A DNA stretch of 64,000 nt from Eucommia ulmoides (lineage: Eukaryota > Streptophyta > Magnoliopsida > Garryales > Eucommiaceae), in assembly GCA_016647705.1 (NCBI GenBank), contig CM028335.1:37578712-37642711 (forward strand), written 5' to 3'. The position numbers were made by a program, and so were the translations under genes. The notes beneath the pieces were generated by a model. That model was not told the DNA's origin and ran no database searches. It saw only the letters and a list, made by a program, of their open reading frames with translations. This document shows positions 25,799 through 49,727 of this stretch, piece after piece; position 1 is the stretch's first letter, and each line of letters begins with the position of its first letter.

Positions 25799-26645
25799 TG
25801 ATGGATAGGCCTACTGGTTTTATACGGAGTTTGTGTGCGATGATGTCATGGCCCCGTTTGGTTAGGTTGCGGATAATTAGGACATCTTTGGTTAGTGGTA
25901 ATAAAAAAAAAAATGACAGGATATATTTTTATTTATTTTAAAAAAAATATATTTTTTTAATCTTATTTAGCTAGAAAAAAAAGAAAAAGAGTAAAAATAA
26001 TTATTTTAATATAATTTACTATTTTATCTTCATATATTATAAAAATAAATTAATTATCATTGGTAGAATTATAATTTTATTCATTTTTAATTATTTCCCT
26101 TCATTTTCTTCTCATATTTGTAAGGAAAAAAAATTGCATTAAAAATTGTATTTTTTTCATCCTATTTTCTTTTTTCTTCTATTTTCCATTCAACCAAACA
26201 AATTTTTTTTTTTCATTTTCTTTTCTATCCATTTTGCACCAAACCAAACGCACCCTTAGTGTTTTCACTTTTACCATCCTATTCCTTAATGATGAAAGAG
26301 GCCAACTGAAAAATAAAATAAAAATTAATAATAAAAAAAAAAAAAAAAATCTTGCTCAAATAATTCAATAATCAATTAATCAAATGTGTCTTTTTATTAT
26401 AATAAAACCTCATTATAAAGGCAACAATAACGGCTACTTAACAAGATAAGAAAGAATAATAGCTACTTTAACGACTATTTGCCAAAATAATAATAACGGT
26501 TACTTGACAAAATAAGAATAACGGTTACTTAATAGCTACTTTATTAGCTATAAATGTAATTAACTACTATAGAAAAAGTGACTAATGATTTTTCTGCCTC
26601 CTTCATACATGAGTTCAAAACGGTGACCTTAGTCGATCCCCATCA
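25799..26645 (-). repeat. Chromovirus 3' LTR, containing a MITE
   Basis: It matches 49316-49727 over 'ggttttat.cggagtttgtg...catggccccgtttggtt' and again over 'tgttttcacttt...ctccttaatgat.aaagaggccaa' to the ends (ccccatca against ccctatca). The copy here is longer because it holds a 376 bp MITE and extra 'ataacggctactt' type repeats at 26425-26560. It starts about 170 bp upstream of the GNAT start codon. Confidence 0.75.
25880..26255. mobile_element. PIF/Harbinger-type MITE with an empty site in the other LTR
   Basis: The ends are ggacatctttggtta at the left and accaaacgcaccc at the right. TTA is repeated at 25877-25879 and 26256-26258. The interior is poly-A/T-rich without coding. In the partner LTR at about 49390-49410 the same flanks are joined directly (gatgattattgttttcac), giving an empty site and showing that the MITE arrived after the chromovirus. 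Confidence 0.88.
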
Positions 26646-26689
26646 TTTCTCCATGGCTGAAAAGAAGTCGCCTCCAGAGAGTTATAAGA

Positions 26690-27077
26690 TTGCTACTACT
26701 CCAAGAGGTCAGGTGAAAGTCGTCTTAACTCCTCATCTAGAATCCACGTAGCATTTGAGAGTGGTAGACCTTTCCATTTGACAAGATATCTTTGATATCC
26801 ACCTTGTGACGAGCCAATGATCTCGTCTTCTAACACATCTTCAATTTGATCATCTTTATATGTTGGAAGACAAGTTGCTTTGGTATTCATGCAGATGAAT
26901 TAACATCTTTCCAAGGAAGAGTACTTGTAGAAAAAATACGGGGCTCAAATGTGCCTCGATAAGGTAGCAAGTCTTTCACATTGAAAACACAACTAATATG
27001 CATATGAGATGGTAAATTAAGTAAATAAGCATTAAGTCCAAGTCTAAAGAGAATACGGTGTGGCCCCATAACTCTAA
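26690..27077 (-). mobile_element. Chromovirus integrase C-terminus and chromodomain
   Basis: On the minus strand, 27069-26887 reads as the integrase C-terminal part (LNAYLLNLPSHMHISCVFNV, then LPYRGTFEP). Further left, 26845-26700 is a chromodomain (YQRYLVKWKGLP, then ATWILDEEL). Chromodomains at the integrase tail define chromoviruses and are known to guide insertion to marked chromatin. The piece ends at the boundary of the Athila-like element. It is a fossil fragment. Confidence 0.88.
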
Positions 27078-28275
27078 TGATAAATTGATTTTCTCTATAT
27101 ATTTCTAGCCGATTTTAGTAGTTTTCAAGTGTTCTTGTAATGCTTTAATTCATTTTTATTTGTTTTTATGCAAATTAGGTGTTATGGGCAAAAACAGTCG
27201 AAACTCGAGCTAATCGGTAGGACGTCGGTGAAGAAACAGTTAAAAAAAGATAAAAAATGGCTTTCTGCAACAAGCAACAGCCAGTGGTTGTTCTGACCAT
27301 TGCTCGCTGCAGCGACCAGACACAGCTGGCAACGCATTTTTAGATATTTTTAAGATATTTTTTTATTTCTTTTTATATCCCTTCATCCTACTATTGCCAA
27401 GAACGTTTTTGGAGAGCCCTAGATCAGACCAAGCAAGAGGAGCACATTATTGGAGAAGAAGAAACAATCTTGGAGTGGATTTTGCGGAAGTGAAACTATC
27501 CACTTTACAGATTTGTCTTTCCTTTATTGTTTCTAAATTTTGTTGATTATTTGATAATGTTTATCTCATGTGTTATTGAATATTCGGTTATGGCCATGAG
27601 TAGCTAAGCATTTATTATCTAGGGATTGATGTAGTTCATGAATATATATGTTTGAGTAAATCTTTGTTTCGTTAACGGTTGTTCATCCCTATTCGATTGT
27701 GTTTATCTTTTTATTACTTCCATAGTATGCTTGTTATGATATTGTGGTTAATTTGAGAATATGGGGTTTAACACTTAGGAGAGGTAACCCCGAATTCGGA
27801 TTAGGGTTAAAAAGACAACACAACGTTCTAATGTTTCAGGAGATTATTAGAACGTGTGCAATCCGTGAGGTTGGGGCAAGACTCATATAATCATTTAGAC
27901 GTTAGATAGGGATATCGGTGTTGACGTGGTTGCATATTCACTCACTTTACACTCAGGAGAGGTAGTGAGTGAGTTTTAGACACCTAGATTGTTGAATAGA
28001 TTGATAACCATTAATGTAAACTATACTAAATCAAACACGTGTAAGTGAACGAAGTTAATCCCTAGATAATCCATTATCATATAATTAATCTCAAGTATTT
28101 TAGTTTAATTAGTTTTCAAATAGAGAACACATATCAAATCTATAATCGTCTAGATAAAATTGAGTTATGTTAATTGTAGTACTTAACTAGTTCTAACGAT
28201 AAATCCTAGTAGATGACACTCGATCTTTGGATCCACTTTATTACTTGTTGACCTTATGCACTTGCGAGTAATTCA
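27078..28275 (+). repeat. Athila-like 5' LTR
   Basis: This is a 1198 bp terminal repeat matching 32127-33337. It contains a short repeated motif around 'gctgcagcga' (27300-27330), a TG start and a TTCA end. Confidence 0.85.
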
Positions 28276-29315
28276 AGCATTACTATGGAAATGAAGAATG
28301 AGTTGTGGAAAGTATCTCCCTCGTTGACGACTAATGTGGATCGTTATTGAGTCCAGCTAGGGACGTTAAATTTAGCAGCTTTTTTGATATACAACCCATA
28401 AAAATGGTTCTCGACTATTTTTGCTAAAATAAATTTTTTGGAGGTTGAAGTGATCTCAATGCGAGTTTGTTTAGTAAATGGAGGAGTTCGGATGTTCGGG
28501 GATGATAAATGATCTTGAACGAGGAGAAATAGCGAAACGGCAACGAAACGGTGGCTGACCGTTGGCAAAAATACAGAAAAGCAGGACTTAGGCCTGCAGA
28601 CTTAAACTCGTTGCAGTGAGCTCTTGCTCATTGTAGCAACCAAACGTCAGAAAGGCCACTACCCTTTTCTCGCTACAGCAAGAAAACCAACTCGCTGCAG
28701 CAAGAGCACCCCTATTTTGATAAATAGGGGCGTCGTTTCATGTTTTCCCTATTTTTAAACCCTAAAAACCGATTCTCTCCTCCATGTTTTCTTCCAAGCC
28801 ATTATATAACCTCAAATCCATCCCCCCATCCTCAAAAACCTATATCCCCACCACAAATCACCCGAAAAATCACCATTCACAACCTTAACTTCAGTATTTC
28901 TAAGGGTTGGAGTTCAAGTGTTGAGATCTCCATTTCACACGATTTGGGCACTCATTATTCTTCAAGTAAGTTTTTTAAAATGAAATTTCACTTGTGTGCT
29001 ACCATTTTGTTATTGATTGGTTGTTAGATTGAAGTTTGAATGTGAAATTGTTGGATGTGGTTGAAACCCTTGACCCTACAATTTCCATTGGGGATTTTGT
29101 CTGTTCTATTGTGAATATGGGTCAATTTTTTGGTGAATTAAACATTGTTTTGTGGTGGTTTGATTTTTGGATTGAAGATTTGGTGTGAAATTTGTGGAAC
29201 TTGTGTTGCCAATTGGGGATTTTCTGTTTTGCTGAAGTTGTAGGTTCAAATCTTTGAATAGGGAAGACCATATTGTGATTGGTGAAGGGATTTTTTGTGT
29301 GTTGAATCGATATCA

Positions 29316-30500
29316 TGCCTAAGAAATCCGTTGCTAAACGACAAAGGGATGAGGGATCCAGTTCGCGAGCCGTTGATCCCGTTTTGGATTACGATTCAAG
29401 CCGTTTCGTTTCCAAGTAGGTGGAGCAACATTTCAATAGGTTTGAGGAAAAATGAAATTGAATTCGTGAACACAGCTTTGCCAATCTAGATGATCTTCCA
29501 GATGAGATAGCAAATGTGATACGAGATAGAGATTGGAAGCGCTTTTGTAGGACCTGGCCTAGGTGACGTTACCTTGGTTGGTGAATTCTTCGCAAACGTC
29601 GTAGATTACGAGAACCACATGACCATGGTCCAGAATCATGTGGTAAAATTTGATGTTAATACGATAAACGAGCACTTGTGGTTGCCTACTGAGGAGTTTG
29701 ATGAAAATTTGGATGAGGATGTGACGAAAGAGGATTTGGACATAGTCATCAAGGGGATTTGTTCGGGAAATATGCGTTCGGTACATACGAGGCCAGATAT
29801 GGCTATTTTTCCGTCCAAGCACTTGAAAAAATTCCCAAAAATATGGTTCCACTTCGTCTGCGCCAGACTGCATCCGATGGCTCATTTGACTGACATGACC
29901 AAAGACATGGCATTAACTTTATATTCTATTGAGACAAATCAGCCATTAAATGTCTATTTTCTCATCAATTGCCCCATCTATTATGCCATCTAGAACACCA
30001 ATACCGACCTGCCCTTTCCTTCTCTACTCACAGAGCTATTTTGGAAAGCAGGGATTGCAATTTCGAACGACAACTTGTGCCATCCCAAAAGAGCTCTAGA
30101 TCTCCCAGACATGAAGAGAATATGGAACAAGGAACCTGAGGGTACAGTAGAGGATGAAGCAGGGCCATCCAGGGCACAAGGTTTTGAGGCTCCCGTTAGA
30201 GCGAAAATCTCAATGGAAAGTCTTAATCAACAAGTGGTATACCAGAGGGAGTAACTTTAGGTTCTACGTCTTGACATCGCCGAAATCCGAAATGAAAACG
30301 CTGAATTTCAAATGTATCAGGATTCGTACAACCAAACGATGCATCAGGCTCTCCAGTACTTCGGAATGGCAGCCGGCTATAACATGAGTGGCTATCCCCC
30401 GATGTACCTGCTCTCGGATTATCTTCAGCAACTACCACAAAATCCCTCCTATCACAATGGTAGTAGGGACAAAATGCCTCACGACGGTCAGTAGGAGGTG
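29316..30500 (+). mobile_element. Athila-like gag remnant (plant transposon-protein domain)
   Basis: The region begins at 29316 with MPKKSVAKRQRDEGSSSRA, a basic N-terminus typical of this gag type. It continues with a recognisable central domain in 29574-29990 (LVGEFFANVV near 29572, VVKFDVNTINEHLWLP near 29640, and PSKHLKKFPKIWFHFVCARL). That domain is the 'putative plant transposon protein' domain found with Athila-related and gag-only elements. A Gln/Tyr-rich tail with a predicted coiled region follows. The frame is broken. Confidence 0.75.
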
Positions 30501-30665
30501 ATCCTTCAATGTCTCACCTCCCAGGTACGTGTTCAAAACCCACTTAGTCACCATGCTATATGTCTATTGTTAAGATCGATGTTGGGTCACTGTGGACACT
30601 GCCCATTTTCAGTTTGGGGGGATTTTTTTGTTTTGTATGCTTTTCTTGTTTAATGACTTTTTGTT

Positions 30666-30770
30666 GGTTATGTAGTTAAGTTAAATAGTTGTTAAACGTT
30701 ATGTAGTTAAGTTAAATAGTTGTTAAACGTTATGTAGTTAAGTTAAATAGTTGTTAAATGTTGTGTTGTT
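30666..30770. repeat. Tandem repeat, about 33 bp by three
   Basis: Three close copies of ttatgtagttaagttaaatag followed by ttgttaaacg lie downstream of the Athila-like gag region, in its non-coding spacer. Confidence 0.9.
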
Positions 30771-32126
30771 TAATTTCATGCATGTTTGTTTAGTATTAGT
30801 GTAACTGTATTTATGTTTGTAGCTGTTGTTATTATGTGTTGAGTTTTGTGGTTCTTTTAGACCATTACCCAATGATGATATTAACCACTAGTTGTTTATC
30901 GAGGTCAAGGGTAATTCCTATTCATGTGTGTTCTGTGTGCTTAACATCTCGTTTTGGTAAAAGTGATTGTGGATCCTAATTTGCACGAGCACGTAGACTC
31001 AATGTACTAGATATCCAATTGATTTGACGCCAATTATCCAATAACCAAGTTCATGACAAATTTAAGGGATTTTGAACCTGATTGGGGAAAATTCGAGGTG
31101 AAATTCTAGGCGAGGTAGTTTAAGAGATATAATTTAGGTATTCATTTTGATTGCTTGAGTCGTTGAAGCCTTCCATGCAAAATATTGTACCTCTCATTAC
31201 CCTATCGAAGCCTTTTAGCCATTTCAATTATGAACACGCATCAAATACCTTGGCTAGTTAATTTTTTTTTTCCAAACCATTGTCGCTATACTTAAGGTAC
31301 GAATCAAGTTGTAATCAATTTAGCATTTGTTTATGCTAATTAAAGTGAGCGATTGGGTTATGGGCGAACTTTTGATTGGTTCGGTATTCGAGTACTCACT
31401 TGTTATTTTTCGATCGTAGTTCCACACCCGTGAAATTGTACAGATCAAATAAGTTTGGTGGTGTGGTTAGTAAAAAAAAAACATGTGTAAATATGGTTTT
31501 GTTTTTGTTTGTTTAGACAAGTGAGTACTACTTTTAAAAAGTAAGTTCGGGGTTGTTTTGGATTGATCTTTGTGGGTACGAGTGTGATTGAGTGCCAAGC
31601 GTAGTGCTGTGAGTATCGATGATCTAAAGACGTTATCTTGTTTTATATTCCCATTTTACCCTTGGCCAAATGTTAAAAACCGAACCAAGTCCTTCTGATC
31701 TTTTAGAATTGCTTAGCCTACATTAGTGGAGAGTGGAACCCAGTCTGGCTTATGGAATTCTTATACCTCTTCGGTTTAAGTCATGAACTTTGTTGGTGGA
31801 TAATCCAATCCGATCTTTGGATGGTTGTGTAATGAGTTTTCGCACATACACTTGAACAGGATCTAGAATGGCGTTTACTGTTATTGAATGTTGAAATTCT
31901 AGAACATCACATGGTGCGGTTTTATTCTTGAACTCAATATGATTCGGGGCCGTTGAGAAAAAAAAATGGTCGATTAGTTGAAATTCAAAACTCACACGTC
32001 GATATTTTTAGTTCATTTGAGTCTTTCATTTTTAATATTTGTGTTCGTTATTTCGTTGTAGTAGTTTGTTTTATTGTGTGGGTGTTTTTGCTTGAGGACA
32101 AGCAAAATTTCAAGTTTGGGGGTATT

Positions 32127-33337
32127 TGATAGATTGACTTTATCTATATATTTCCAAGTCAATTTTGATAGTTTTCAAGTGTTCTTGTAATATTTTAATT
32201 CATTTTTATTTGTTTTTATGCAAATCAGGTGTTATGGCAAAAAACGGTTAAAACTCGAGCTAATCAATAGGACATCGGTGAAGAAACGGTTAAAAAAAGA
32301 GCAAAAATGACTTCTTGCAACGAGCAACAGCCAGTGGCTGTTCTGACCATTGCTCGTTGCAACGACCAGACATAGCTGGCAACGCATTTTTAGATATTTG
32401 TAAGATATTTTTTTATTTCTATTTGTATCCCTTCATCCTACCATTGCCAAGAACATTTTTAAAGAGCCCTAAATCAGACCAAGCAAGAGAAACACATTAT
32501 TAGAGAAGAGCAAATGATCTTGGATCAAATTTTGCATAAGTGGAACCATCCACTTTATAGATTTGCCTTTTCTTTCTTCTTTCTCTATTTGTTTCTAGAC
32601 TTTGTTGATTATTTGATGATGTTTATCTTATGTGTTGTTGAATATTCGGTTATATCCATGAGTATCTAAGCGTTTATTATCTAGGGATTGATGTAGTTCA
32701 TGAATATACATGTTTGAGTAAATCTTTGTTTCGTTAACGGTTGTTCATCCCTATTCGATTGTGTTTACCGTTTTATTATTTCTATAGTATACTTGTTATG
32801 ATATTGTGGTTGGTTTGAGAATACGGGGTTTGACACTCGGGAGAGGTAACCCCGGATTTGGACTAGGATTAAAAACACAACACAACGTTCTAATGTTTTG
32901 GGAGATTATTAGAACGTGTGTAATCTGTGAGGTTGGGGCAAGACTCATACAATTATTTAGACACTAGATAGGGATATCGGTGTTGACATGGTTGCATATT
33001 CACTCACTTTATACTCGGGAGAGGTAGTGAGTGAGTTTTAGACACCTAGATTGTTGAATAGATTGATAACTGTTAATGTAAACTAGACTAAATCAAACAC
33101 ATATAAGTGAATGAAGTTAATCCCTAGATAATCCATTCTCATAGAATTAATCCCAAGTATTTTAGTTTAATTAGTTTTCAAATAGCGAACACATGTCAAA
33201 TCTCTAATCGTCTAGATAAAATTGAGTTATGTCAATTGTAGTACTTAACTAGTTCTAACGATAAATCCCAGTGGATGACACTTGATCTTCGGATCCATTT
33301 TATTACTTGTTGACCTCGTGCACTTGCGAGTAATTCA
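32127..33337 (+). repeat. Athila-like 3' LTR
   Basis: This is a 1211 bp partner of 27078-28275, directly after the purine tract at about 32110-32126. At its right edge the chromovirus reverse transcriptase remnant resumes on the minus strand. Confidence 0.85.
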
Positions 33338-35370
33338 AAGCGTATATAATTATCGCCAACATCTAACATGCAGTATCTTAAAAGAGTATTTTAGGTAGCA
33401 TTCAGTGCGAACTCGAACCATTACATACTTACCCTTCTTAAATTTTATATTCCTACGGTGAACATCAGCCACAAGTTTGTACCCACTATGTAAATCAATC
33501 TTTGTGTACCATTTGGACCCTTCTATCTAGCTTAGCAAGTCATCAAGTTTAGGGGTAGAAAGTTGGTACTTAATCATGATCCTATTAATGGCTCGACTAT
33601 CCATACACATTCTCTAAGAACCATCCCTTTGGAGAGTCAACAAAGCAGGAACTACACAAGGGCTAAGGCTAGGTTACATTTGACCTTTTTGTGAGACGTT
33701 TGTCTACCTGCCTATTCATTTTTTCCTGTTCTTTCGATTCAACCTATAATACAAGAGATTAAGCAATTGAGATTCTGGTACGAGGTCGATGGCATGTTGA
33801 ATGTCCCTTATAGTTTTACGTCGTGAAACTCCCCTAACAAGGTGGTAACCTTTTCCGAGAGATTGACACTTGTCTTAGAAGGAAAACAGATTTTTCCTTT
33901 TCCCACTGATGTCAATATGGGAACCCGAGTTTCTTACTCTTATGCTTAAACTTCTGACGGGATAAGATAGGAAGTTTATTCTTAAAGCTATTTTGAAAAG
34001 AATACTCATTCTTTGTTTGGCTTTCTTTTGGTTGGGTTTAGCAAGCTTTAAAATGATGATTTTGCTAGCATGTTGAAAGACATAAGTATTATCCCTACCA
34101 AAGTTTTTTGTGTCTATGTCATAGAGCCATGGACGACCTAAGAGAACATGTGCAACATCCATAAGTAAAACATCACATAAAATTTGTGTGGAGTAGTCAC
34201 CCATCTTGATTGGTACCAAACAAGTCTCAGAAACAGGTAATGAGGTCTTATCTACTCAGATAACCCTATAGGGGTGAGGATGTGGGTCAGTTTTGAGCTT
34301 TAACTTAGCAACATCAGACTTGGATATGACATTCATTGAGCTTCCTCTATCGATAACCAACTTACAAACTCTATCTCCATACTTTACGTAAGTGTGAAAG
34401 ATACCGATACGTTTCCAAGCGTCAGAATCAATAGGCGTAGTAGTGATACACCTCATGACATTAAGATAAGCATTATTGGACTCGTCCCCTAGTTCTTCCC
34501 CTTCTTCTGATAGTTCTAAAGGTTCCACTACTTGATTAACTTCCTCATCATCTAGGGGTTCTAGCCTTCAACAACTATTGTCAGGGTTTGATGTGGGCAA
34601 TGCGATGCAAAGTGACCTATACCGTGACAATTGTGACTTTATATGGAAGAGAAATCTCTAGTCTTAGTCATACTAGGTCTTTGGTGGATACTTTGACTAG
34701 GATTAGAGCTTTTCCTAGAAGTTCCTGGTGCCACGTGATTAGGGTTGTAAATACTCTTTAGTGCTACGGAGACAGGTTATGATTGATTGGTCCCATGTGA
34801 TTTCTCAAAAGGTGCAGATCTAGACTGATTTGATCCTTCTATTGGAGAAGTTATCCTTCTCTGATCGAGAAACCTAGAGAACCTCTATATTTCTAGAGCC
34901 TTATAGGATGTCTCTTCTAATGATTTTTGGCGAATGAAGAGACTTCGCTTTGAATATCAAGCCTTAAACCATTAATGATTTGGTGACACGAACCCATGAT
35001 GCCTCATTAATATCACACCTCAACATTAGTTCCTCAAATTAGGCTATATAATCAGATGCGCTAGAGGATAATTGCTTAAGGTTGAGCCATTGGTTCATTA
35101 CTTGTTACATATAACAAGTCGGGTGATACTTTTCATTTAGTTGACCTTTTATGTCCTCCCAATGGGTGATAGGTATCTGTCCTATTCGTTCCATGTTTCT
35201 TTGGACACCTTGTCAATACCTCTTAGCAGACCCAATAAGTTTCATTTTGGCAAATCTCACCCTATGGTTATCTAACATCTCATACCATTCAAAATAATCT
35301 ACCAAATCATTTAGCCAATCTAAAAAAGTATTAGGGTTCAAAGTGTCATCATAACAAGAAACATCAACCC
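33338..35370 (-). mobile_element. Chromovirus gag, protease and partial RT remnant
   Basis: In minus-strand order: gag around 35330-35100 (FLDWLNDLVDYFEWYEML near 35330-35275, then EELMLRCDI near 35010-35040); a CCHC knuckle near 34640-34570 (GIGHFASHC); an aspartic protease-like region at 34528-34256 with VCKLVIDRGSSMNVIS; the protease-RT linker at 34219-33875 with LLMDVAHVLLGRPWLYD; and an RT stretch at about 33620-33400. It is broken in many places. The left end abuts the Athila-like LTR. Confidence 0.8.
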
Positions 35371-35494
35371 TCGCCTTTAACTAGACGAAACAACTTTAGC
35401 TAGACGAAGCAAGGAATCGTACTATAACCAAACAAGAAACCATACTAACCTTAGCAAAACTACACTGGTTTTAACTAGACGAAGTAAGAAACCT
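35371..35494. other. Junction filler with short repeats
   Basis: About 120 bp of A-rich DNA with two to three copies of a 'ttagctagacgaagcaagaaacc' like unit lies between the chromovirus gag piece and the Tat-type LTR. It matches neither element and looks like junction DNA. Confidence 0.5.
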
Positions 35495-37959
35495 TGACAT
35501 GCCCTATTTTTTCGAGAGGAAAAGAATATTAAATAATAAGCTTAAGGATAGGGGTTTTTAAATTATTAGTTTTCTCAAAAAACATACTTAGGCCGTTTTA
35601 AAAAATAAGAAGTCGCCACCTAACATTGGGTTTAAATGATGTGCTAGGTCACCAAATTTTTAGAAGAAAAAAAATTAAATGGCCTAAGTAAAAATTGACT
35701 CCAAAAAAGACACGGTCAAACCAAAGATTCATTTAAAGGCTCGAGAGTCGGTTACGCTCGTGGAAGGTGTTAGGCACCCCAAGACACCCAGCTGAAAACG
35801 GTACCTTATGTCTAATTAACTCCAATTAGTTTAGTCCTAATGTTTTATTTTATTTTAAAATTATTTCATTCTTATAAAATTTCTTTGGTATTTTCACAAA
35901 GAAGGTGGGACAAGTTTTTGGATTTTTTGGAATGTTCCCCCGGTATAACCTCTTATCGAATATTAAGGATTCGACAAGAATGGTCCCCAGAGGTTTTCAT
36001 GTATGTTTTGCAGAGACTTCTTTAATTTAAATAGAAAACTAAAATAAATGAATAAGATTGGAAATATGAATGCAAAACTAACATCTAAATGAGTTTTATT
36101 TTGTATGCAAAAGAGACTAAAAAAAACTAAAGGATTTAATTTAAATATGTCAATGCAAACTGATATGAATACAAGAATCGAATATGGAACACTACATGAA
36201 TTAACGTGATTATGCGTAGCAATAATTTAATTAAAAATATAAAAGGTGCATGTGTCGTGACTAGATGTGAAAAAGTGGCATGGATTCGTGAAAAATAAAA
36301 AAACTGTATGTATGAAAAGTGTAAATGGTGAAAGTGTCCTAAACATGCCGTCTAAATGATATAAGAAATAACCATGCTAAGTGGATGCAAAAAAAGTTTA
36401 CTTTGAGTTTACCCGATTAATTTAAAGAAATCCCATTTTGAAATTTTCTCGAATTCTATGGATATGAGAATCAAGGGGAGGTTCGCGGAAACAATTTTTG
36501 TGAAATTAATCTTTCTAAAACTTAAGCAGAATCCCATAAACAAATTACCGAGGGAAGATATTTCCTAAAGCCATTCGTTTCTAAATTCCACTCAAGTTGG
36601 GGAATGGAAACGAAGCCACGGAAAACCTTCTCACGGTTTATCGAACCGTCGGACTCACCTTAAGATTCATAAGGATTAATTCTTACAAATAAATATTTTA
36701 TTATTTTTGGATTTTTGTATTTTATTTTTTATTTTTAGGGTTTTGATAACAAGAATGAAAATAAAATAGCAAATACAAAAAACAAACAATAAAACATCAT
36801 TCACCTAACACTCGGGGTTAAGCTCAATGCGACAAACTCACCCCAATGTTTTCATCGGATTATCAGATGACTTATTCTTTTTTTGTGTTTTTTTTTATGA
36901 ATTAAAAACAAAATAAAAAAAATTCAAAAATAAAATAAATAAAAAACAACGGGTATCCTCGTCTAAAAGCTCAAAGATTCATATTGAGAATGGGGAACCT
37001 TATCCCGGCATTTTTCATCGAGTCATCGGACAAATATAAAAACATAAAGCTTGCAGAAATTTAAATTGTGAAGATAATAAAATGAACTGAAAAGAGAATT
37101 AAAAATAAAAAAACATACCTGTTTTAGGCCAAGAATCCCGATGCTCTGGCTTCTTTTTTTTTTCTCTCGCAAACAGCTTCCCGAAAAGAGGTTTGGGAAT
37201 CACTCTTTAAGGGATTTTTCTCTCAATTTCTCAATGAATCAAGTAGGAAGAAGAGGGTCCTATTTATAGAAAATGATAGGGTGTGAAAAATACGAGGAAC
37301 CCATAAAAATTAGGTCTGAGCCTAGTCCAAATTGGACTAGAAAATGGTGAAATTCGGAAAAACATTCACCGCCTTACCGCCAGCCACATGGCAAGGGGCC
37401 ATTGGCCCTTTCTCTCTCTCTCTTACATGCACACACACACGGTCAGCAGGGCCCACCCGCCCTTTTTGAATTTTCTCTTTCTTTCCTCACTCTCTCACAC
37501 GTTCACACACACACACACCTAGTCAGCAGGGCCCTACCCTTTTGCCTTTTCTCTTTCTTTATTTTTTCTTACGGCCATCATGATACACACACACACACAA
37601 AAAAAAATAAAAAAAATACATCACAATCTCTCTCTTGCTCTCTCTCGATAGGTCCCACACTCTCTCTATTTATCTTTCTCTCTCACGGTTTGGACCCAAA
37701 AGGGGGCCCACTCCTTTTCTCCCTTTTCATTTTACTCCCCATATTTCCATTTCTCAAATCTTACCCCATTTTTCTTTTCTTTCAATTTCACCCATTTTCT
37801 TTATTTTGATTTTGTCTTTTCTTTTTCCTATTTCTTTATCAATTATTTTTGTATTTTATATTTTCTGAAATAAAATTAAATAAAACAAAAATAAAATAAA
37901 GTTAACTATAAAGTAAAACATAAAAAATTTTGCGGGACAGTCAAAATGTCGTGTCTACA
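35495..37959 (-). repeat. Tat-type 3' LTR, about 2.46 kb
   Basis: It runs from tgacatgccc to gtgtctaca on the plus strand. It holds a pyrimidine- and CA-rich block at 37405-37700 and poly-purine stretches. The sequence near 37750 (catatttccatttctc) is the empty-site version of the place where the solo LTR sits in the partner LTR. Confidence 0.85.
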
Positions 37960-38087
37960 GTTGCTCCTCTTTGTCCTACGAATTTCACTTGCTTGACAAA
38001 GGCAAAAGACCACGTCTTTTTATCGTCCCATTTTCTGGATTTTTTTTCAAAGTGCATTTTTCAACGACGCAACAAATAAAATAAAAT

Positions 38088-38642
38088 GACTCATGACGAA
38101 CAAGTGCCCGTTTAGAGGATCATTTAGAGTGATAAAAGAATGACTCATGACGAACAAGTGTCCGTTTAGAGAATCGTTTAGAGTAATAAAAAAGAAAAGA
38201 TTCATGACGATACTCATGATGAACAAGTGTCCGTTTAGAGGATCGTTTAGAGTAATAAAAAAAATACTCATGACGAACAAATGTCCGCTTAGAGGATTGT
38301 TTAGAGTGATAAAAAACAGACTTAGGACGCCACTCATGATGAACAAGTGTCCGTTTAGAGGATCGTTTAAAGTAATGAAAAAAGACTCATGATGATACTC
38401 ATGACGAACAAATGTCCATTTAGAGGATCGTTTAGAGTGATAAAAAAAATAGATACTCATAACAATACTCATGACGAACAAATGTCTGTTTAAAGGATCC
38501 TTTAGAGTAATGAAAAAAAGACTCATAACGATACTCATGTTGAATAAATGTCCATTTAGAGGATCGTTTAGAGTGATTAAAAAAATAGAGACTCATGACG
38601 AACAAATATCCGTTTAGAGGATCGTTTAGAGTGATAGAAAAT
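38088..38642. repeat. Nine-copy tandem array, unit about 54-68 bp
   Basis: Nine imperfect copies of 'actcatgacgaacaa.tgtccgtttagaggatcgtttagagt.ataaaa' are spaced by A-rich linkers, several with an extra 12 bp 'actcatgacgat'. On the minus strand the array reads openly for 163 codons as repeats of a FFITLNDPLNGHLFVMS-like unit. It lies just inside the 3' LTR, where Tat/Ogre elements often carry such arrays. Confidence 0.93.
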
Positions 38643-39890
38643 TGATCAAGCCCTAACCCTCTTGGCTGGGGGACAAAAGAAAGTTCAGATGTATAAAATA
38701 TACCCCAACTTGTGACTAGGCAAAAATGATAGAGCAAAGATAGAAAATGTGACTCAGCCTTCGGTTGGGGCTAACTCTCAGAAGAATGAACCTTTACAGG
38801 TTGCCTATGTACCTTAACATTATGCCGAGGATCAGGTTTAGCGTAGTTCACTAGACGCCCCTTTCAGGGAAAAACGGATACTTGGATTCTCATTTTGAGC
38901 TTTTGAATTTTCTACAGTAGGAGTCTCCAACTCGAGTCGGTAGGAAAGTAAGAGGTCCCAATGATAGGGAAATCCATGCTCCCAGCCTTTTTGAAATCCC
39001 TGTAATGAACAAGATAACAACTTCCAAAACAAAATCTTAGTCTGAAAAATTGTTACCTTTGATGACTCACAATTCCGTTCTCCGCTTTCGGTCATAATCG
39101 CTTTGGCTGATGGTGCTTGGATCGGAGCGATATCGGGAGATTCTTCTGTTTAAATTTAGAAACTTCTATTTCCAACTTAGGGCCTGACATGCCTTGGGGT
39201 GATTCAATGAGACTTTTTTTTTCATCAAATTTTTTTTTTTTTAACTTCTGAGATTTCGTTTTTCAACTTAGAGGAGGGCCCAACATGCCTTATCAAGGTC
39301 TCTTTGGCTTGCTCAATTGGATTCTTGTCTTTTCAAATTCCTAGGTACTTAGATTCTTGGGGTTCTAATACTTTTGCATGCTCTATGTTTTCTCAAATCC
39401 TGCAAAACTGATTTAGTCCAAAAAAACTAGGCAAATGTCGAAAATTACTAAATGGGTACCTTTAATGCCTGATACAATTTTCTATGAGATCTTGAGTTGG
39501 ATTATAGAGAAATATGATTCCAATACACTTCTCGACCACAACCAATGTTTTTTTTCACAAATTCTGATTCCATTCAAATCCATCAAGTTCTGATCCCGAA
39601 AAACGTTGTTTGCCTGCCAAATTGAGTTGAGGCGAAAACCTTGAATGGATGAAGCTATTCTCTTTCTTTCATCTTCTAATATCTTTCATATTTGTACCAA
39701 CATTTCTTGCTCGGTTACTCCACATTTTCATTTTTCTTTTTCTCTTTTTTTTTTCTTCTTTTTTTTTGCGCTTTTTTTTTTTTTTTTTTTGAAATAGATG
39801 ATCGAACTTACAATGGTTCAAGAGCATCCGAGCTTAAAAATGAATTTGATCTTCTTTGCGAATTGAGGCCTTCTTGTAACATTTGAGCTT

Positions 39891-40411
39891 ATTCATTGGG
39901 ATCATTGACCTGGAATGATTGTGTTCCCTTCTCGCCATTGGGGTCCGACAACAAGCAAACCAGGATGTTTATACCCGGTTTTATCAAATCACTAAAGAAC
40001 CACCGGAGACAGTTTGATCAACTTGCAATGATATATTAAGGAATCGTTAGGGAAATGGAAGCCAATCTTGACTTTCAAATCCTCTGGTACTCTGGAATTG
40101 CTGTCGGATTTGGTTAGGGGCCTTTTGGATCTCACCATCGTTTGGCTGATTCAATGGGATCATTGACCTGGAATGATTGTCTTCCCTTCTCGTCATTTGG
40201 GTCTGACAACAAGCAAACTAGGATGTTTATACCTGGTTTTATCAAATCACTAAAGAACTACCGGAGACGGCTTGATCAACTTGCAACGATATATTAAGGA
40301 ATCGTTAGGGAAATGGAAGTCAATCTTGACTTTCAAATCCTCCGGTACTCTGGAATTGCTGTCGGATTTAGTTAGGGGTCTTTTGGATCTCACCATCGTT
40401 TGGCTGAACAA
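39891..40411. repeat. Direct duplication, about 258 bp by two
   Basis: The stretch beginning 'gggatcattgacctggaatgattgt' near 39897 is repeated almost exactly from about 40156, both ending near 'ctcaccatcgtttggctga'. The high similarity between copies suggests a recent tandem duplication within the old retroelement interior. Confidence 0.92.
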
Positions 40412-42545: not shown

Positions 42546-45273
42546 TCGGAATGAGTTTGGGCCTGACTACGAGTAAAGATTGGACTTCAGATAGGGGGAA
42601 TCGAATTTGCTTTTCTGGGACCAATTTTTCTGTCTCTTCTTATTCTACAACAAGCTTATTTATTAGTCAACGTGGGTCTTAGGTAGCCTTAAAATTCGTT
42701 CGAGTTTGAAGTTATCAATTCTGATAATGACCGATCAAAACAGATAATAATTTATGAATTTTTTTTCTTTACTTAATCGGTATTGAAAACTTTGAACTCG
42801 TTTGGTTTTTAAGACTTCCTAAGACATCATCAATCCATCAAGTAAAAACCCTTTTTCCATGCCTTGTATTCATAGAATCCCGTTGGGACAATATGGATAT
42901 CAGACGACCATACTCATGTCGGAGGGTTTACAACAATACAAGAGCCCGATAAAAAAGAAAGAAAAGAAGAAAATGAACAAACATCACAACTTATTTACAA
43001 AAATAGAAGGAAAAGATAACAAAATAAAAAATAACATTTAGACATTGAATAGTTGGACTTATTTGGACATATTAGGCTTGACGCTCTAATTGTCCCCAAC
43101 GGAGTCGCCAACCGAAGCGCCCTCTTTTTTTCGAGAGGAAAATAATATTAAATAATAAGCTTAAGGATAGGGGTTTTTAAAGCACCGTTTTTCTCAAAAA
43201 TATACTTAGGCCGTTTTAAAAAATAAGGAGTCGCCACCTAGCATTGGGTTTAAATGGTGTGCTAAGTCACCAAATTTTTAGAAAAACAATTTAAATGATC
43301 TAAGTAAAATTTGACTCCAAAAAAGACATGGTCAAACCAAAGATTCATTTAAAGGCTCGGGAGTCGGTTACTCGGGAAAGGTGTTAAGCACCCCAAGACA
43401 CCCATCCAAAAATGGTACCTTATGTCCAATTAACTCCAATTAGTTTTGTTCGAATGTTTTATTTTATTTTAAAATTATTTCCTTCTTATAAAATATTTTT
43501 GGTATTTTCACAAATAAAGTGGAACAAGTTTTTGGATTTTTGGGAATGTTCCCTTAGTATAACCTCTTATCGAATATTAATGATTCGACAAGGATGGTCC
43601 TGGGGTTTTTATGTATATTTCCAAGTGACTTCTTTAATTTAAATATGCAAACTAAAATAGATGAATAAAATTGAAAATATGAATGCAAAACTAACATCTA
43701 AATGAGTTTTATTTTGTATGCAAAAGGGACTAAAAAAAACTAAAGGATTTAATTTAAATATGTCAATGTAAACTGATATGAATACAAGAATCGAATATGG
43801 AACACTACGTGAATTAACATGATTATGTGTAGTAATGATTTAATTAAAAAAATATACGGGATGCATGTGTTATGACTAGATGTGAAAAAGTAGCATGGAT
43901 TCGTAGAAAATAGAAAACTATATGTATGAAAAGTGTAAGTGGTGAAAGTGTCCTAAACATGTTCTCTAAATGATACATGAAATAAACATGCTAAGTGCAT
44001 GCAAAAAAAGTCTACTTTGAGTTTGCCCGATTAATTTAAAGAAATCCCATTTTGAAATTTTCTCGAATTCTATGGATATGAGAATCAAAGGGAGGTTTGC
44101 GGAAACAATTTTTGTTGAAATTAATCTTTCCAAATCTTAAGCGGAATCCCACGAAAAATTTACCAAGGAAAGAGATTTTCTAAAATCATTCGTTTCTAAA
44201 TTCCACTAAAGTTGGGGAATATAAACGAAGCCACGGAAAACTCTCCCACGGTTTATCGAATCATCAGACTTACCTTAAGATTCATAAAGATTAATTCCTA
44301 CAAATAAATATTTTATTATTTTTGGATTTTTGTATTTTATTTTTTATTTTTAGGGTTTTGATAACAAGAATGAAAATAAAATAAAATAACAAATACAAAA
44401 AATAAATAATAAAACATCCGTCACCTGACGCTTAGGGTTAAGCTTAACACAAGAAACTCACCCCGACGTTGTCATCGGATCATCGGACGACTTATTTTAT
44501 TTTTTTGTGCCTTTTTTTTTTTTTTTTTTTTAAGAATTACAAACAAAATAAAAAAAATACAGAAATAAAATAAATAAAAAACAGCGGGTGTCCTCATCTA
44601 AAGGCTCAAAGATTTAGATTGAGAATAAGGAACCTCATCCCGACGTTTTTCATCGAGTCATTGGACAAATATAAAAAAAAAAAAAAATCTTGCAGGAATT
44701 TAATTTGCGAAGAGAATAAAATAAACTAAAAAAAGAATTAAAAATAAAAAAACATACTTGTTCTAGGCCAAGAATCCCGATGTTTGTATTTTTTTTCTCT
44801 CGCAGACAACTTCCCGAAAAGGGTTTTGAGAATCACTCTCTAAGGGGTTTTTCTCTCAATTTCTCAATGAATCAAATAGGAGGAATAGGGTCCTATTTAT
44901 AGGAAAAGATAGGCGTGAAAAACATGAGAAAATCCTAAAAATTAGGTTTGGTTGCCAAATCTCAGTCCAAATTGGACTGAGAAAGGGTGAAATTCAGAAA
45001 AACATTTATCGCCTCACCGCCTACCACACGGAAAGGGGCCATTGGCCCTTTTCCTCTCTCTCACACATGTACACACATGCCCAGTTAGAAGGGGCCCACT
45101 CTTTTGTCTTTTCTCTTTTTTCCTTTTTCCTTGCGGCCGTCATCACACACACACACACAAAAATACATATCACGATCTCTCTCTCTCTCTCTATTTATCA
45201 TTCCCTCTCACGGTTTGGACCCAAAAAGGGGCCCACTCATTTTCTCCCTTTTCATTTTACTTCTCATATTTCC

Positions 45274-47793
45274 TGTTGATCCTAAGATTTTGATGGACAA
45301 TTAAATGTTGATATTTTTTTTGGAACTAATGATTTTATTGAGTATTTCATTTTATTAGTTCTAGTGATGAAAATGGTCATGAAGATATTGTGACAATGCT
45401 AAATATTATGACAAAGATGATGAAATATTAAGAGTTTGAAGAAATTGAAGAACATAGAGAAAACAACTCAGGTTAGATTCTAACTCTTAATGTATCCCAA
45501 TTAGGATCACACACGACACAAAATATTTTTCAAAATTATGTGTGTTTTTATAGGATCCTAATTAGTTAAATTATTTGCTCCTATGTGTAATTGAAAAAGA
45601 AATGAAGATAATTGACTAAAATTTAATTTAAGATTTAGTAGAGCTAACTGAGAAAAGAAATCGGCTATAAGGGCGAAAATGTCAGTGAAATTAGATTTAA
45701 AATGAATTCAGGAGAAGATTCCAACATCTCTCAGTTGACAGGTAAGTCGACCGGTTATTAATGAATGAAGTTGTTGAATCTCTTAGTCGACAGGTAGGTC
45801 GACCTGAGCTTAAAACAAGAAGTCTCTGATTCTCTAGGTCGACAGGTGAGTCGACTTGTGATCAGAAAATGAACTCTTTGAATCTCTAAATTAACAGATA
45901 GGTCGACTTATGAAACTCTTTGAATCATCCAGTCGATAGGTGATGGATGGGCAGTCGACTGACGGGCGAAGAGTTTTTGGCTTTGCTACATCCTGAATTG
46001 GGCGGTCAACTGATTGGTCTTGACCGGTCGACAGATGAAGCTGTTTCAAGATTTATGGAATTTTGGATTTTATTCAAAAAGTAGCCGTTACAAGCCGTTT
46101 TATGGTTAAGATATGTGAGATATCTAAGGGATCTGATATGTTTTAAGTTATTTAATTAATATTTAATTATCCCTATAGATATGGTTCGAGTAGTTTTGAT
46201 ATTTCTCAATTTGGTACGTGTATTTCTTTCAATCTTATTTAATTGAGTTTGAGTAAAAATTTGAGGGACTTAATTGAATATTTTAAGAGATATTTTAAGT
46301 GAATTATACCAGGAATAAATCATTATGATATATAAGGTCTATTGGTATAATTAAATATCATGATTTATGGGAACTAGCCGTTATAGGGCTTGTTTCAAGT
46401 GACTTTAAATAGACTTGCAAATTTCACATATAAAATAATAAAAAATCAAGAGAATCCAATTTATTCTGAATTATTCAGCTCTTGTGCTTTCTAAGAGTAA
46501 TCATACTGAGTGAATTGTGAGATCTTTTCTGAGAGTTGTTCTTGAGAAATATTTGTTGTGAATTATTGCTACTACCGATATGAAGTTTTATTGCTATTCT
46601 AATCATTATTTTTTTGGTAGAATTCTGGTGAGATCTTTCCAAATTACTTACTATTAATTATTTCTTGATTATATTTATTATTTGGAATTTGATCTTTAAA
46701 ATTGTTTTCCGGATTATTTATTGAAAATTATTTTTGAAATAATTTTTTGAGAAAATCTAATTACGTGCTTAATTTCTTGCTACCCATCTTTATTTATTAG
46801 ATTTTGAAATTCTCACCTTGCTATCACTAGTATCGGGACATTAATTGAGTTTGAATTTATTTTGGGTGGTAGAAGCTCCAAATGGAAAAATCACTTATCA
46901 ATTATTTTTAATTGGTGAGTTGAGTGTCGGATTAGATATTATTGGGAGTGTCTAATCAAGGGTAGTTGGTTTCAATCTCTTCCGGTAAAGAGATTGAGGT
47001 TTTGATCTTTGCCTAGAGTATAAAAAAATTAGGTGCTAATTCTTCCTTGATTGAATTTGTGAGTGAATTGTAACGATTCATTCATTACCGGGTAAAAGGA
47101 TATTTGGAGCATATTTGTGTGAGGTTTAATTCTTGATCCTACTGGGAGTGTCTAATCAAGGGTAGTTGGTTTCAACCTCTTCCAGTAAAAAGATTGAGGT
47201 TTTAATCTTTGCCTAGAGTATAAAAAGATTAGGTGTTAATTCTTCCTTGATTGAATTTGTGAGTGAATTGTAACGGTTCAATCCTTACCGAGTAAAAGGA
47301 TATTTGGAGCGTATTTGTGTGAGGTTTAATTCTTGAGCCTAAGGTATAAAAAGAATTAGGTAGTGATTCTCCCTGTAATAGAATTAGGTTAATCTTCCGC
47401 CTGGTAAAAATATAGAGATTATTCCTTAGCCCGTAAAAATGAATTGTAAAGGTTGATTCTAAGTCTGTGAAAAAAATCGTTGTGAGGGTTTGGTTCCTAT
47501 CTTTAAAATAATCTTGAGTTTAGTGGGTGCAACTCTCTGTGGAGTTCGGGGGAACTGGATTAGCCAAGAGTAGCTTGGTGAACCAGTATAAATTTCTGTG
47601 TGCTACATTATTTACATTGTTTATATTTTGTTATTTGGGTGTGCACCTAGTTGATAATATATAATCCACTACTATAAAAGATAACAATTAATTTTAGGAT
47701 AAAATTAATTGTTTGATTTTTGGAGTGTCATATTCTGATATTTATAATACTACCCAATTCAACCCCCCTCTTAGCTAACTCGTTGAGCAAACA
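45274..47793 (+). mobile_element. Solo LTR of the SIRE-type family
   Basis: It begins TGTTGATCCTAAGATTTTGATG and ends gagcaaaca. It is the inverted counterpart of the LTRs at 2434-4563 and 7167-9522. A perfect 5 bp target duplication, TTTCC, flanks it (45269-45273 and 47794-47798), and the other Tat-type LTR shows the empty site. It is longer than its relatives partly because of a roughly 205 bp tandem duplication. Solo LTRs form by recombination between the two LTRs of one element, so a full SIRE-type element once sat here. Confidence 0.92.
46941..47350. repeat. Tandem duplication, about 205 bp by two, inside the solo LTR
   Basis: Two near-identical units each start 'ttgggagtgtctaatcaagg' (about 46939 and 47143) and end near 'gtgaggtttaattcttga'. 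They differ at only a few bases, so the duplication is younger than the LTR itself. Confidence 0.9.
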
Positions 47794-48008
47794 TTTCCAT
47801 TTCTCAATTCTTACCCCTTTTTTCTTTTCTTTCAATTTCACCAATTTTCTTTATTTTGATTTTGTCTTTTCTTTTTCTATTTCTTTATCAATTATTTTTG
47901 TATTTTATATTTTCTCAAATAAAATTAAATGAAACAAAAATAAAATAAAGTTAACAATAAAGTAAAATATAAAATTTTTTGCGAGACGGTCAAAATATCG
48001 TGTCTACA

Positions 48009-48093
48009 AAGTTGGTTCGGTGATTCATGCCATGTCGGATGAGCAAGATATACGGAAGATGGCGGCGCTTGCCTCCTCGGTCCCTTTGACTTA
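48009..48093 (+). pseudogene. nad5: Fragment resembling mitochondrial nad5 (NUMT)
   Basis: These 85 bases read openly in the plus direction as KVGSVI, then [19 protein letters not shown], then PLTY. This matches the conserved plant NADH dehydrogenase subunit 5 segment [18 protein letters not shown], including the DEQD-RKM core. The fragment starts directly after the CA end of the Tat-type LTR and stops where chromovirus gag resumes. It is far too short to work. It is best read as mitochondrial DNA used as filler when a chromosome break was repaired. The assignment rests on recognising the protein motif. Confidence 0.82.
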
Positions 48094-48835
48094 TATCATT
48101 TAGTTAATCTAAGAAAGTGTTAGGGCTTAGAGTGCCATCATAACAAGAAATATCAACCCTCGCCTTTCTAGTAATATCATCATGGTCAAAGCGAGGTTGA
48201 TAGGGTCTACCCTGAGCTCTTATTGGTCGAGGATAGCCAATGGCGCCCCCTTTATTGGGGGTATATTTCATCTAATTCTGGAGCCTCATCAAATGGATAC
48301 TTAGAGAGAAATCTTCACCAAAGTCTTTGTGCCTACTTTCTATTTCATTCATGCCTCGCTCGGGGTGACTTTGGGAAGGAGCTAAGGTTGGTAAAGAATT
48401 TGAATTTAGAACTTTCAGAACGGTCAACAGTGAGTGGGGGGATGGTAAATTTTCATTGTGATGAGAAAAATTAGACTCCACTCTACATTCCCGTACTGGT
48501 TGTTTTTCCATGTGTCTAGTAGCCCTATGGTTTATGTGTTGCACAACAAGTTGAGTGACTTGTTAAGTGATCAGTCTACCTAACTCAATGCGGATCTCCT
48601 TATGGAATTCAGTTTATCACCTATAGAGGTCGGTATATAAATCATCTTGATTTTGGTTCACTTCCTCTCTAAGGTGGTTAACATAATTTTGAATGTGGTT
48701 TATGGAATTTTGAAGATTAGCCATAGTCTCTTGCATGGTTTGGAATTCTTGTCAAACATAATTTCGGGAAGTTTCTGGGTCTCAAATAGTCATGGAGTGG
48801 ATTATAAAGTGATGATATTAATGCCCCAAATATTC
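48094..48835 (-). mobile_element. Chromovirus gag N-terminal remnant
   Basis: The minus strand shows the upstream part of the gag seen at 34560-35370, sharing a stretch of about 80 bp (48094-48170 against 35300-35368). It continues upstream into a charged, probably coiled-coil N-terminus. The remnant is broken in several places. Confidence 0.7.
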
Positions 48836-49315
48836 TTAATGGAAGTATTATAATATTATATTTGTCATGAAAGAAAACAATGCAATAGGGTACTAATGTG
48901 ACTATAAAATATAAATAATTTACTCTTTTTTAAGTTATTTTTTTTAAACGTATTTTTTAAAAAAAAAAAAAATTGTTTTTTTTTTTTCAATTTTATTTAT
49001 TTTTGTTTTGTTTTGTTTTTTTTTTTTTTAAATATATTTATGTTTTTTTAATATATTAAATGGAAAAACTAGAAATAAAACAATAGTGTGAATATATATA
49101 TATATATATAGTAGAACTTATAGACTGTTCCTAGGGCACAAAGCAACTGTCAACCACTACAAATGGAATCTGGAGCAGACTTAGGGTGCCGCAAAGCTCC
49201 GGTGAGGGCCCGCAAAGGGCTAGAACAAGCCTGTCGAGGTCTAGCGAAGGCTGGTCAGCGTCAGTGAGAGATCGAGGTCCGACAAGCTTAGGTCCGGAGC
49301 AGTGGCTGCTGGATC
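48836..49315. other. Chromovirus leader region
   Basis: This is a poly-T/poly-A tract region (48930-49080) with a short TA run (49097-49110), then a GC-richer stretch (49130-49310) built of repeated 'ggtc.g.gaagg / gtcgaggtc' like pieces. It lies between gag and the 5' LTR, so it is probably the untranslated leader. No usual tRNA-Met primer site is recognised. Confidence 0.45.
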
Positions 49316-49727
49316 TGGATATATAAATCTGTTGGTTTTATTCGGAGTTTGTGTACGATGTTGTCATGGCCCCGTTTGGTTTAGTTGCGGATGATTATTG
49401 TTTTCACTTTTCCCATCCCACTCCTTAATGATAAAAGAGGCCAATTGAAAAATAAAATGAAAACTAATAATAAAAAAAGAAGATTCTTGCTCTAATAATT
49501 TAATAATCATTTAATCAAATATATCTTTCAATTACAATAAAGTCTTATTATGTAGACAATAGTAACGACTACTTGCCAAAATAATAATTACTCCTACTTG
49601 ACAAAATAAGAATAACGGTTACTTTATTAGCTATAAAAGTAATTAACTACTACAAGAAAAGGGACTAATAATTTTTTTGCCTCTGCCATACATAAGTTCG
49701 AAGCGGTGCCTTAGTTGATCCCTATCA
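49316..49727 (-). repeat. Chromovirus 5' LTR
   Basis: This is the partner of 25799-26645 without the MITE. Its outer end on the plus strand is ccctatca. The inner end is placed only approximately. Confidence 0.72.

Follow-up and report, generated by a model that had tools for sequence, protein, structure and literature searches.

The 64-kb stretch of Eucommia ulmoides DNA analyzed here (the window, with positions counted from its first letter) contains an 81-bp fragment of the mitochondrial gene nad5 that lies inside one retrotransposon and beside the end of another. The window is located on C11, a 43.8-Mb contig, among retrotransposon sequences and thus on a nuclear chromosome, as expected of a nuclear mitochondrial DNA segment (NUMT). 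The host element is an older chromovirus whose gag region is interrupted, and the element next to the fragment is of the Tat type; both clade names are those of the original prediction. From left to right, the pieces are the following (LTR, long terminal repeat).

25815-26647, minus strand: 3' LTR of the chromovirus, with a 376-bp insert at 25880-26255; matches 49333-49727
33339-35378, minus strand: left part of the chromovirus pol/gag, which stops at 35378; continuous with the right part in all but one of the 19 other copies read
35306-35378, minus strand: copy 1 of a 73-bp gag duplication, 64/73 identical to 48095-48167
35379-35494, no strand assigned: filler X, a piece of a dispersed modular repeat with a 4-bp microhomology to gag
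35495-37959, minus strand: left LTR (3' LTR) of the Tat-type element, pairing with 43114-48008
43114-48008, minus strand: right LTR (5' LTR) of the Tat-type element, in which the stretch from about 45274 to 47792 is a 2.5-kb insert; the family end is at 48008
48009-48013, no strand assigned: AAGTT, either a decayed target duplication of AACCT (3/5 match to 35490-35494) or a short untemplated filler
48014-48094, plus strand: mitochondrial nad5 fragment (NUMT)
48095-48167, minus strand: copy 2 of the gag duplication, 64/73 identical to 35306-35378
48168-49332, minus strand: right part of the chromovirus, with the remainder of gag and the leader, matched by family copies
49333-49727, minus strand: 5' LTR of the chromovirus, matching 25815-26647

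The patch at 48014-48094 corresponds to codons 353-379 of plant nad5, and 23 of its 27 residues are identical to the plant mitochondrial protein. The reading frame from 48011 yields a translation of 30 amino acids before a stop, for which the top four phmmer hits among the PDB sequences were the nad5 chains 7ar7_L, 7a23_a, 7aqq_L and 8e73_5M, all of which we take to be plant chains, with E-values of 5.6e-9 to 2.7e-8 over residues 353-380; other ND5/NuoL chains ranked behind them. In addition, the whole window was scanned in six frames with a 28-residue nad5 segment, which matched 23/28 residues at 48014 and 8/28 at the next five places. A longer plant nad5 segment of 60 residues proved identical to 7ar7_L 343-402 at 60/60 positions. 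Since the nad5 neighbors of the matched stretch, Ala before GSV and Ala after TY, are replaced in the window by Val (GTT) and Ile (ATC), we place the limits of nad5, at the protein level, at 48014 and 48094. The original prediction of a nad5 patch was therefore right about its identity but not about its span, which had been given as 48009-48093. The four differences from nad5 (M to I, G to A twice and F to V) amount to at least four base changes in 81, whereas the four best PDB chains differ mutually at one residue at most over this segment.

Searches of the plant's own genome covered 946.7 Mb in 391 contigs, and the match counts for the patch are lower bounds because frequent words were skipped by the search. 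Within these counts the patch has no further copy, and it and its junctions occur once. The 60-residue segment gave three matches, namely the patch and one fragment each on C16 and C10, whose likeness to nad5 begins only at about FPLTY and which barely overlap the patch segment; PF00361 gave 38 matches, and none of the 12 loci fetched from among them carried the patch segment. Pattern scans for nad5 DNA in viral and prokaryote contig collections returned 0 matches each. The simplest inference from these sequence comparisons is that the patch would have come directly from a mitochondrial donor. The fragments on C16 and C10 (L050 and L051) both carry F and P at sites occupied by L in the PDB protein; the P may simply reflect mitochondrial DNA before RNA editing, and their common left limit could mean that one older NUMT was later copied.

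The borders of the patch can be placed to the base. It was predicted to sit exactly between the CA end of the Tat-type LTR at 48008 and gag resuming at 48094; family ends confirm the LTR end, while the patch starts 5 bp beyond it, after an AAGTT that is not clearly nad5, and ends directly before gag at 48095. When the query began at 47900, the gag match in the 19 other chromovirus copies read starts at 48095 in 14, at 48092 in two, at 48096 in two and at 48143 in one. No shared base is evident at this join: ATCATTT is preceded by CCAA in the family, and TAT is followed by GCC in nad5, so that from the letters it would be a blunt join. At the opposite end of the interruption, gag stops at 35378 and the left LTR begins at 35495; the 116 bp that separate them are filler X, which was absent from the original prediction. 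Gag and X have CTTT (35375-35378) in common, a microhomology of 4 bp, so that the gag joins of the two fillers appear to be one microhomology join and one blunt join. X has 22 other match rows in the genome at 74-94% identity, eight of which stop at 35493 or 35494, and in the 14 X loci read (L035-L048) it forms part of a modular repeat composed of short blocks, CTTTAACTAGACGAAGCAAGGAACC among them, whose order is partly inverted. The dispersed repeat that contains X could not be named.

The interrupted host element has a Tf2-1-like SH3 domain above the Pfam cut-off at 26890-27114 and an aspartyl protease trace at 34259-34567 just below it. The gag sample comprised 43 matches to 48094-48900, including the window itself, from which 19 other copies were read; the sites at which gag is unbroken are thus those of other family members and not an orthologous allele. 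In 18 of the 19 gag is contiguous at the site, and 35306-35378 and 48095-48167 map to one and the same 73-bp stretch, in agreement with the original claim that a short gag stretch is present on both sides. The two copies of this stretch differ at 9/73 sites (0.123), all of them transitions, with private changes on both sides. At alignment column 189 both carry C, which is otherwise found only in L007 and L012 among the 19 others, and at column 195 both carry G, which is otherwise found only in L005; the two states together occur in none of the 19. Moreover, the LTR edge 49333-49428 is common to both flanks and missing from the 19 other copies save for chance stretches of 13-16 bp, and with 49395-49727 as a query, bases 1-28 were covered only by the left LTR of the window among 43 other matches. 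Because of the shared pair of rare states and the shared LTR edge, the flanks are one split element in which 73 bp were duplicated locally; the contiguous site in other copies and the local target duplication are both as expected of break repair. The chromovirus also contains a nested LTR element at 27078-33338, whose LTRs differ at 114/1199 sites, a divergence similar to that of the Tat-type LTRs, and which likewise has no clear target duplication by eye.

Between the two fillers lies a Tat-type element of 12.5 kb with both exact LTR ends, at 35495 and 48008, whose LTR family is abundant. For the right end, 25 loci were fetched of 40 scored among 1233 candidates, and 23 other copies were read beyond the LTR end: 17 alignments stop at 48008, four at 48009, one at 48006 and one at 48015, so that none of these copies continues into nad5. 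For the left end (40 scored of 4603 candidates), the 39 other matches start at 35495 in 19, one base earlier in five, two to four bases earlier in three and further in for 12. In both searches the other LTR of the window was the best non-self match among those scored (94% in the right-end search), and the two therefore very likely belong to one element. Its LTRs differ at 201/1883 sites (0.107; Kimura two-parameter distance 0.117), which would correspond to an age of about 4.5 million years if the maize rate of 1.3e-8 (PMC2686159) is applied, a rate that may not be this plant's.

Pfam domains above the cut-off were found in none of seven translated interior pieces of this element, and the name Tat, which domains do not confirm, rests on the original prediction and on the motif GTCCCCAACGGAGTCGCCA beside the right LTR, which we take to resemble a Tat primer-binding site on the minus strand. 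Because of this motif the element probably reads leftwards, which would make 48008 the outer end of its 5' LTR. The inner start of the right LTR is CG instead of TG. The insert at 45274-47792 (2.5 kb) is absent from the left LTR and contains a 200-bp tandem pair (46935-47334) that is 93% alike. The last 216 LTR sites (37743-37959 and 47793-48008) differ at only 12 (0.056), compared with 201/1883 (0.107) elsewhere, possibly through local conversion or constraint. Just inside the element there is also a repeat array at 38070-38657 with a spacing of 54-70 bp, and further in a 258-bp head-to-tail duplication at 39887-40402 with 16 differences.

The outer bases of the Tat-type element bear on how it entered. 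The flanking 5-mers are AACCT (35490-35494) and AAGTT (48009-48013), which match at 3/5 positions, and the original statement that there is no matching target duplication stands in that there is no exact copy. Such a match has a likelihood of 0.08 under a decayed duplication and of 0.09 under chance, a ratio of about 0.9 at this LTR divergence, and since it is nearly equally likely either way, the missing duplication is weak evidence. We considered it as proof of entry without integrase and rejected it as uninformative. The bases directly outside the LTR ends are AA and CT, unlike those beside the inner LTR borders, and extra cDNA bases are thus absent; this speaks against cDNA capture and lowers its probability, although trimmed or processed ends would also be without them.

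We believe that a staggered break in gag was probably repaired with a 73-bp duplication and a composite filler that includes mitochondrial nad5, because the target is duplicated, the filler is composite and its joins are one microhomology join and one blunt join. The chromovirus would have been resident at the locus before the break, which would have left ends staggered by 73 bp, either through two opposite-strand nicks or through copying that re-entered 73 bp upstream, and gap filling would then have duplicated the 73 bp. An end-joining pathway would have attached X to the left end via the 4-bp microhomology and the 81 bp of nad5 to the right end by a blunt join. The Tat-type element would have come to lie between the fillers either in the same repair or, at a similar age, by ordinary integration beside the X/nad5 joint. 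The original prediction had instead a break at the LTR edge mended with organelle DNA as filler; of this, nad5, the genuine LTR end and the marks of repair were upheld, and the break itself is now placed in gag, with a 73-bp stagger. Since the duplication brackets X, the Tat-type element and nad5, a break confined to the LTR edge would not be the simplest explanation.

Several points weigh against this reconstruction. Beside the LTR edge, the duplication is marked as local by only 73 columns with two shared rare states, neither of which is unique alone. Ranked by overall score, the left chromovirus LTR comes no higher than sixth among the other matches to the right LTR, the pair is divergent (47/335 sites) and no target duplication was found around it. 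One other family copy, L012 (1454-1560), which was omitted from the gag alignment, has a rearranged gag with an adjacent duplication of its own of about 24 bp, the first copy of which ends within one base of 35378; the spot may therefore be prone to breaking or duplicating by itself, or L012 may be a matter of chance. An X/nad5 joint without the Tat-type element was not found in the genome searches, and exact termini are also expected from ordinary integration, so that the Tat-type element may be independent and later. Finally, the duplication measures 73 bp, compared with 1-11 nt in the passages on primate NUMTs cited here (PMC2567098).

The ages of the pieces are similar. At half the LTR divergence, about 4.1 changes are expected in the patch for one lineage and at least four are observed in 81 nt, which suggests that the patch may be as old as the Tat-type insertion. 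The gag duplication (0.123) and the Tat-type LTRs (0.107) have diverged to a like degree, and as the 95% interval for 9/73 extends from 0.058 to 0.221, these estimates are too noisy to date the order of events. Entry of the element in the same event would explain both its position exactly between the two fillers and the like divergences. If the fillers came first and the element was inserted later by integrase, exact ends without extra cDNA bases would be explained, as would AACCT and AAGTT as a decayed duplication; this order requires that the element happened to strike beside the X/nad5 joint. We slightly favor the two-step version. That a single repair event captured a piece of nuclear repeat, an organelle fragment and a complete linear 12.5-kb retrotransposon, which would have been end-joined and not inserted by integrase and would be framed by a 73-bp and not a 5-bp duplication, is a tentative proposal that we regard as less likely than not.

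In the order of the original prediction, the Tat-type element could have been there first, with a later break at its right LTR edge that was mended with nad5; an empty allele would then have served as template for the 73 bp of gag added to the right-hand chromosome end. The patch does lie only 5 bp from the LTR end, and such copying would also yield the duplication, but a further cause would be needed for X at the opposite LTR edge, in addition to a heterozygous insertion, and X, the element and nad5 are all bracketed together; we consider this course of events unlikely. It is less likely still that two chromovirus copies were joined by recombination or deletion, with nad5 as an unrelated older NUMT at the junction. 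The divergence of the chromovirus LTRs, their lack of a target duplication and their not being the best-scoring pair would all fit two copies. When this was tested, the pair of rare states and the LTR edge that are exclusive to both sides disfavored it, and the two breakpoints moreover lie no more than 73 bp from one gag position.

An assembly or library chimera with mitochondrial reads would be expected to preserve near-identity to its source. The patch instead differs from nad5 at 4/27 residues, where the PDB chains barely vary, and the duplicated gag copies have diverged at 9/73 bases, both of which make an artefact highly improbable. Chance resemblance to nad5 gains a little from the shortness of the patch (81 bp), but it is refuted by the E-value of 5.6e-9 and by a match of 23/28 residues where the next best places in the window reach 8/28, and we dismiss it.

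Ricchetti in 1999 and Yu and Gabriel in 1999 reportedly described yeast NUMTs captured as filler at double-strand breaks, and patch-mediated tandem duplication in rice is said to have been described by Vaughn and Bennetzen in 2014. In primates, 17 of 71 NUMT integrations carry target duplications of 1-11 nt that were read as overhangs of natural breaks (PMC2567098), the use of organelle DNA as break filler in plants has been reviewed (PMC7037861), and in yeast both mitochondrial DNA and Ty1 cDNA enter breaks (PMC10802722). As far as the cited passages go, the site described here resembles the break-filler NUMTs of yeast, primates and plants in its short mitochondrial fragment, its microhomology and blunt joins and a target duplication that can be read as filled-in overhangs, and it differs from them in that the mitochondrial piece is combined with a dispersed repeat and with a full-length LTR element, all inside another retrotransposon. 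Direct duplications in the 50-200 bp range have been ascribed in rice to the repair of adjacent nicks (PMC7971508), and the 73 bp fall within this range; unlike in the part of that account used here, the copies are not adjacent but separated by filler and the 12.5-kb element. Similarly, retrotransposon cDNA and mitochondrial DNA both serve as filler in the yeast break inserts (PMC10802722), and set beside what is cited of the Ty1 inserts the present case differs in that the LTR ends are without inner-border bases and the element has both full ends. A literature search, outside which supplements and most subscription papers lay, showed no case in which a NUMT patch adjoins a full-length LTR element and a duplication brackets the two.

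The site adds a clear new case to a known type of scar; the original observation of it was right, and the original interpretation was right in kind but not in detail. Since the element that took up the insert is multicopy, other copies in this genome show the site when empty and as it was prior to the break, and the scar is rather complete, with the overhang length, the fillers, the joins and an LTR clock all preserved. If the Tat-type element arrived in that one event, it would show that break repair is a route into plant chromosomes for full-length retrotransposon copies; if it did not, the locus would be a well-documented case of a common process.
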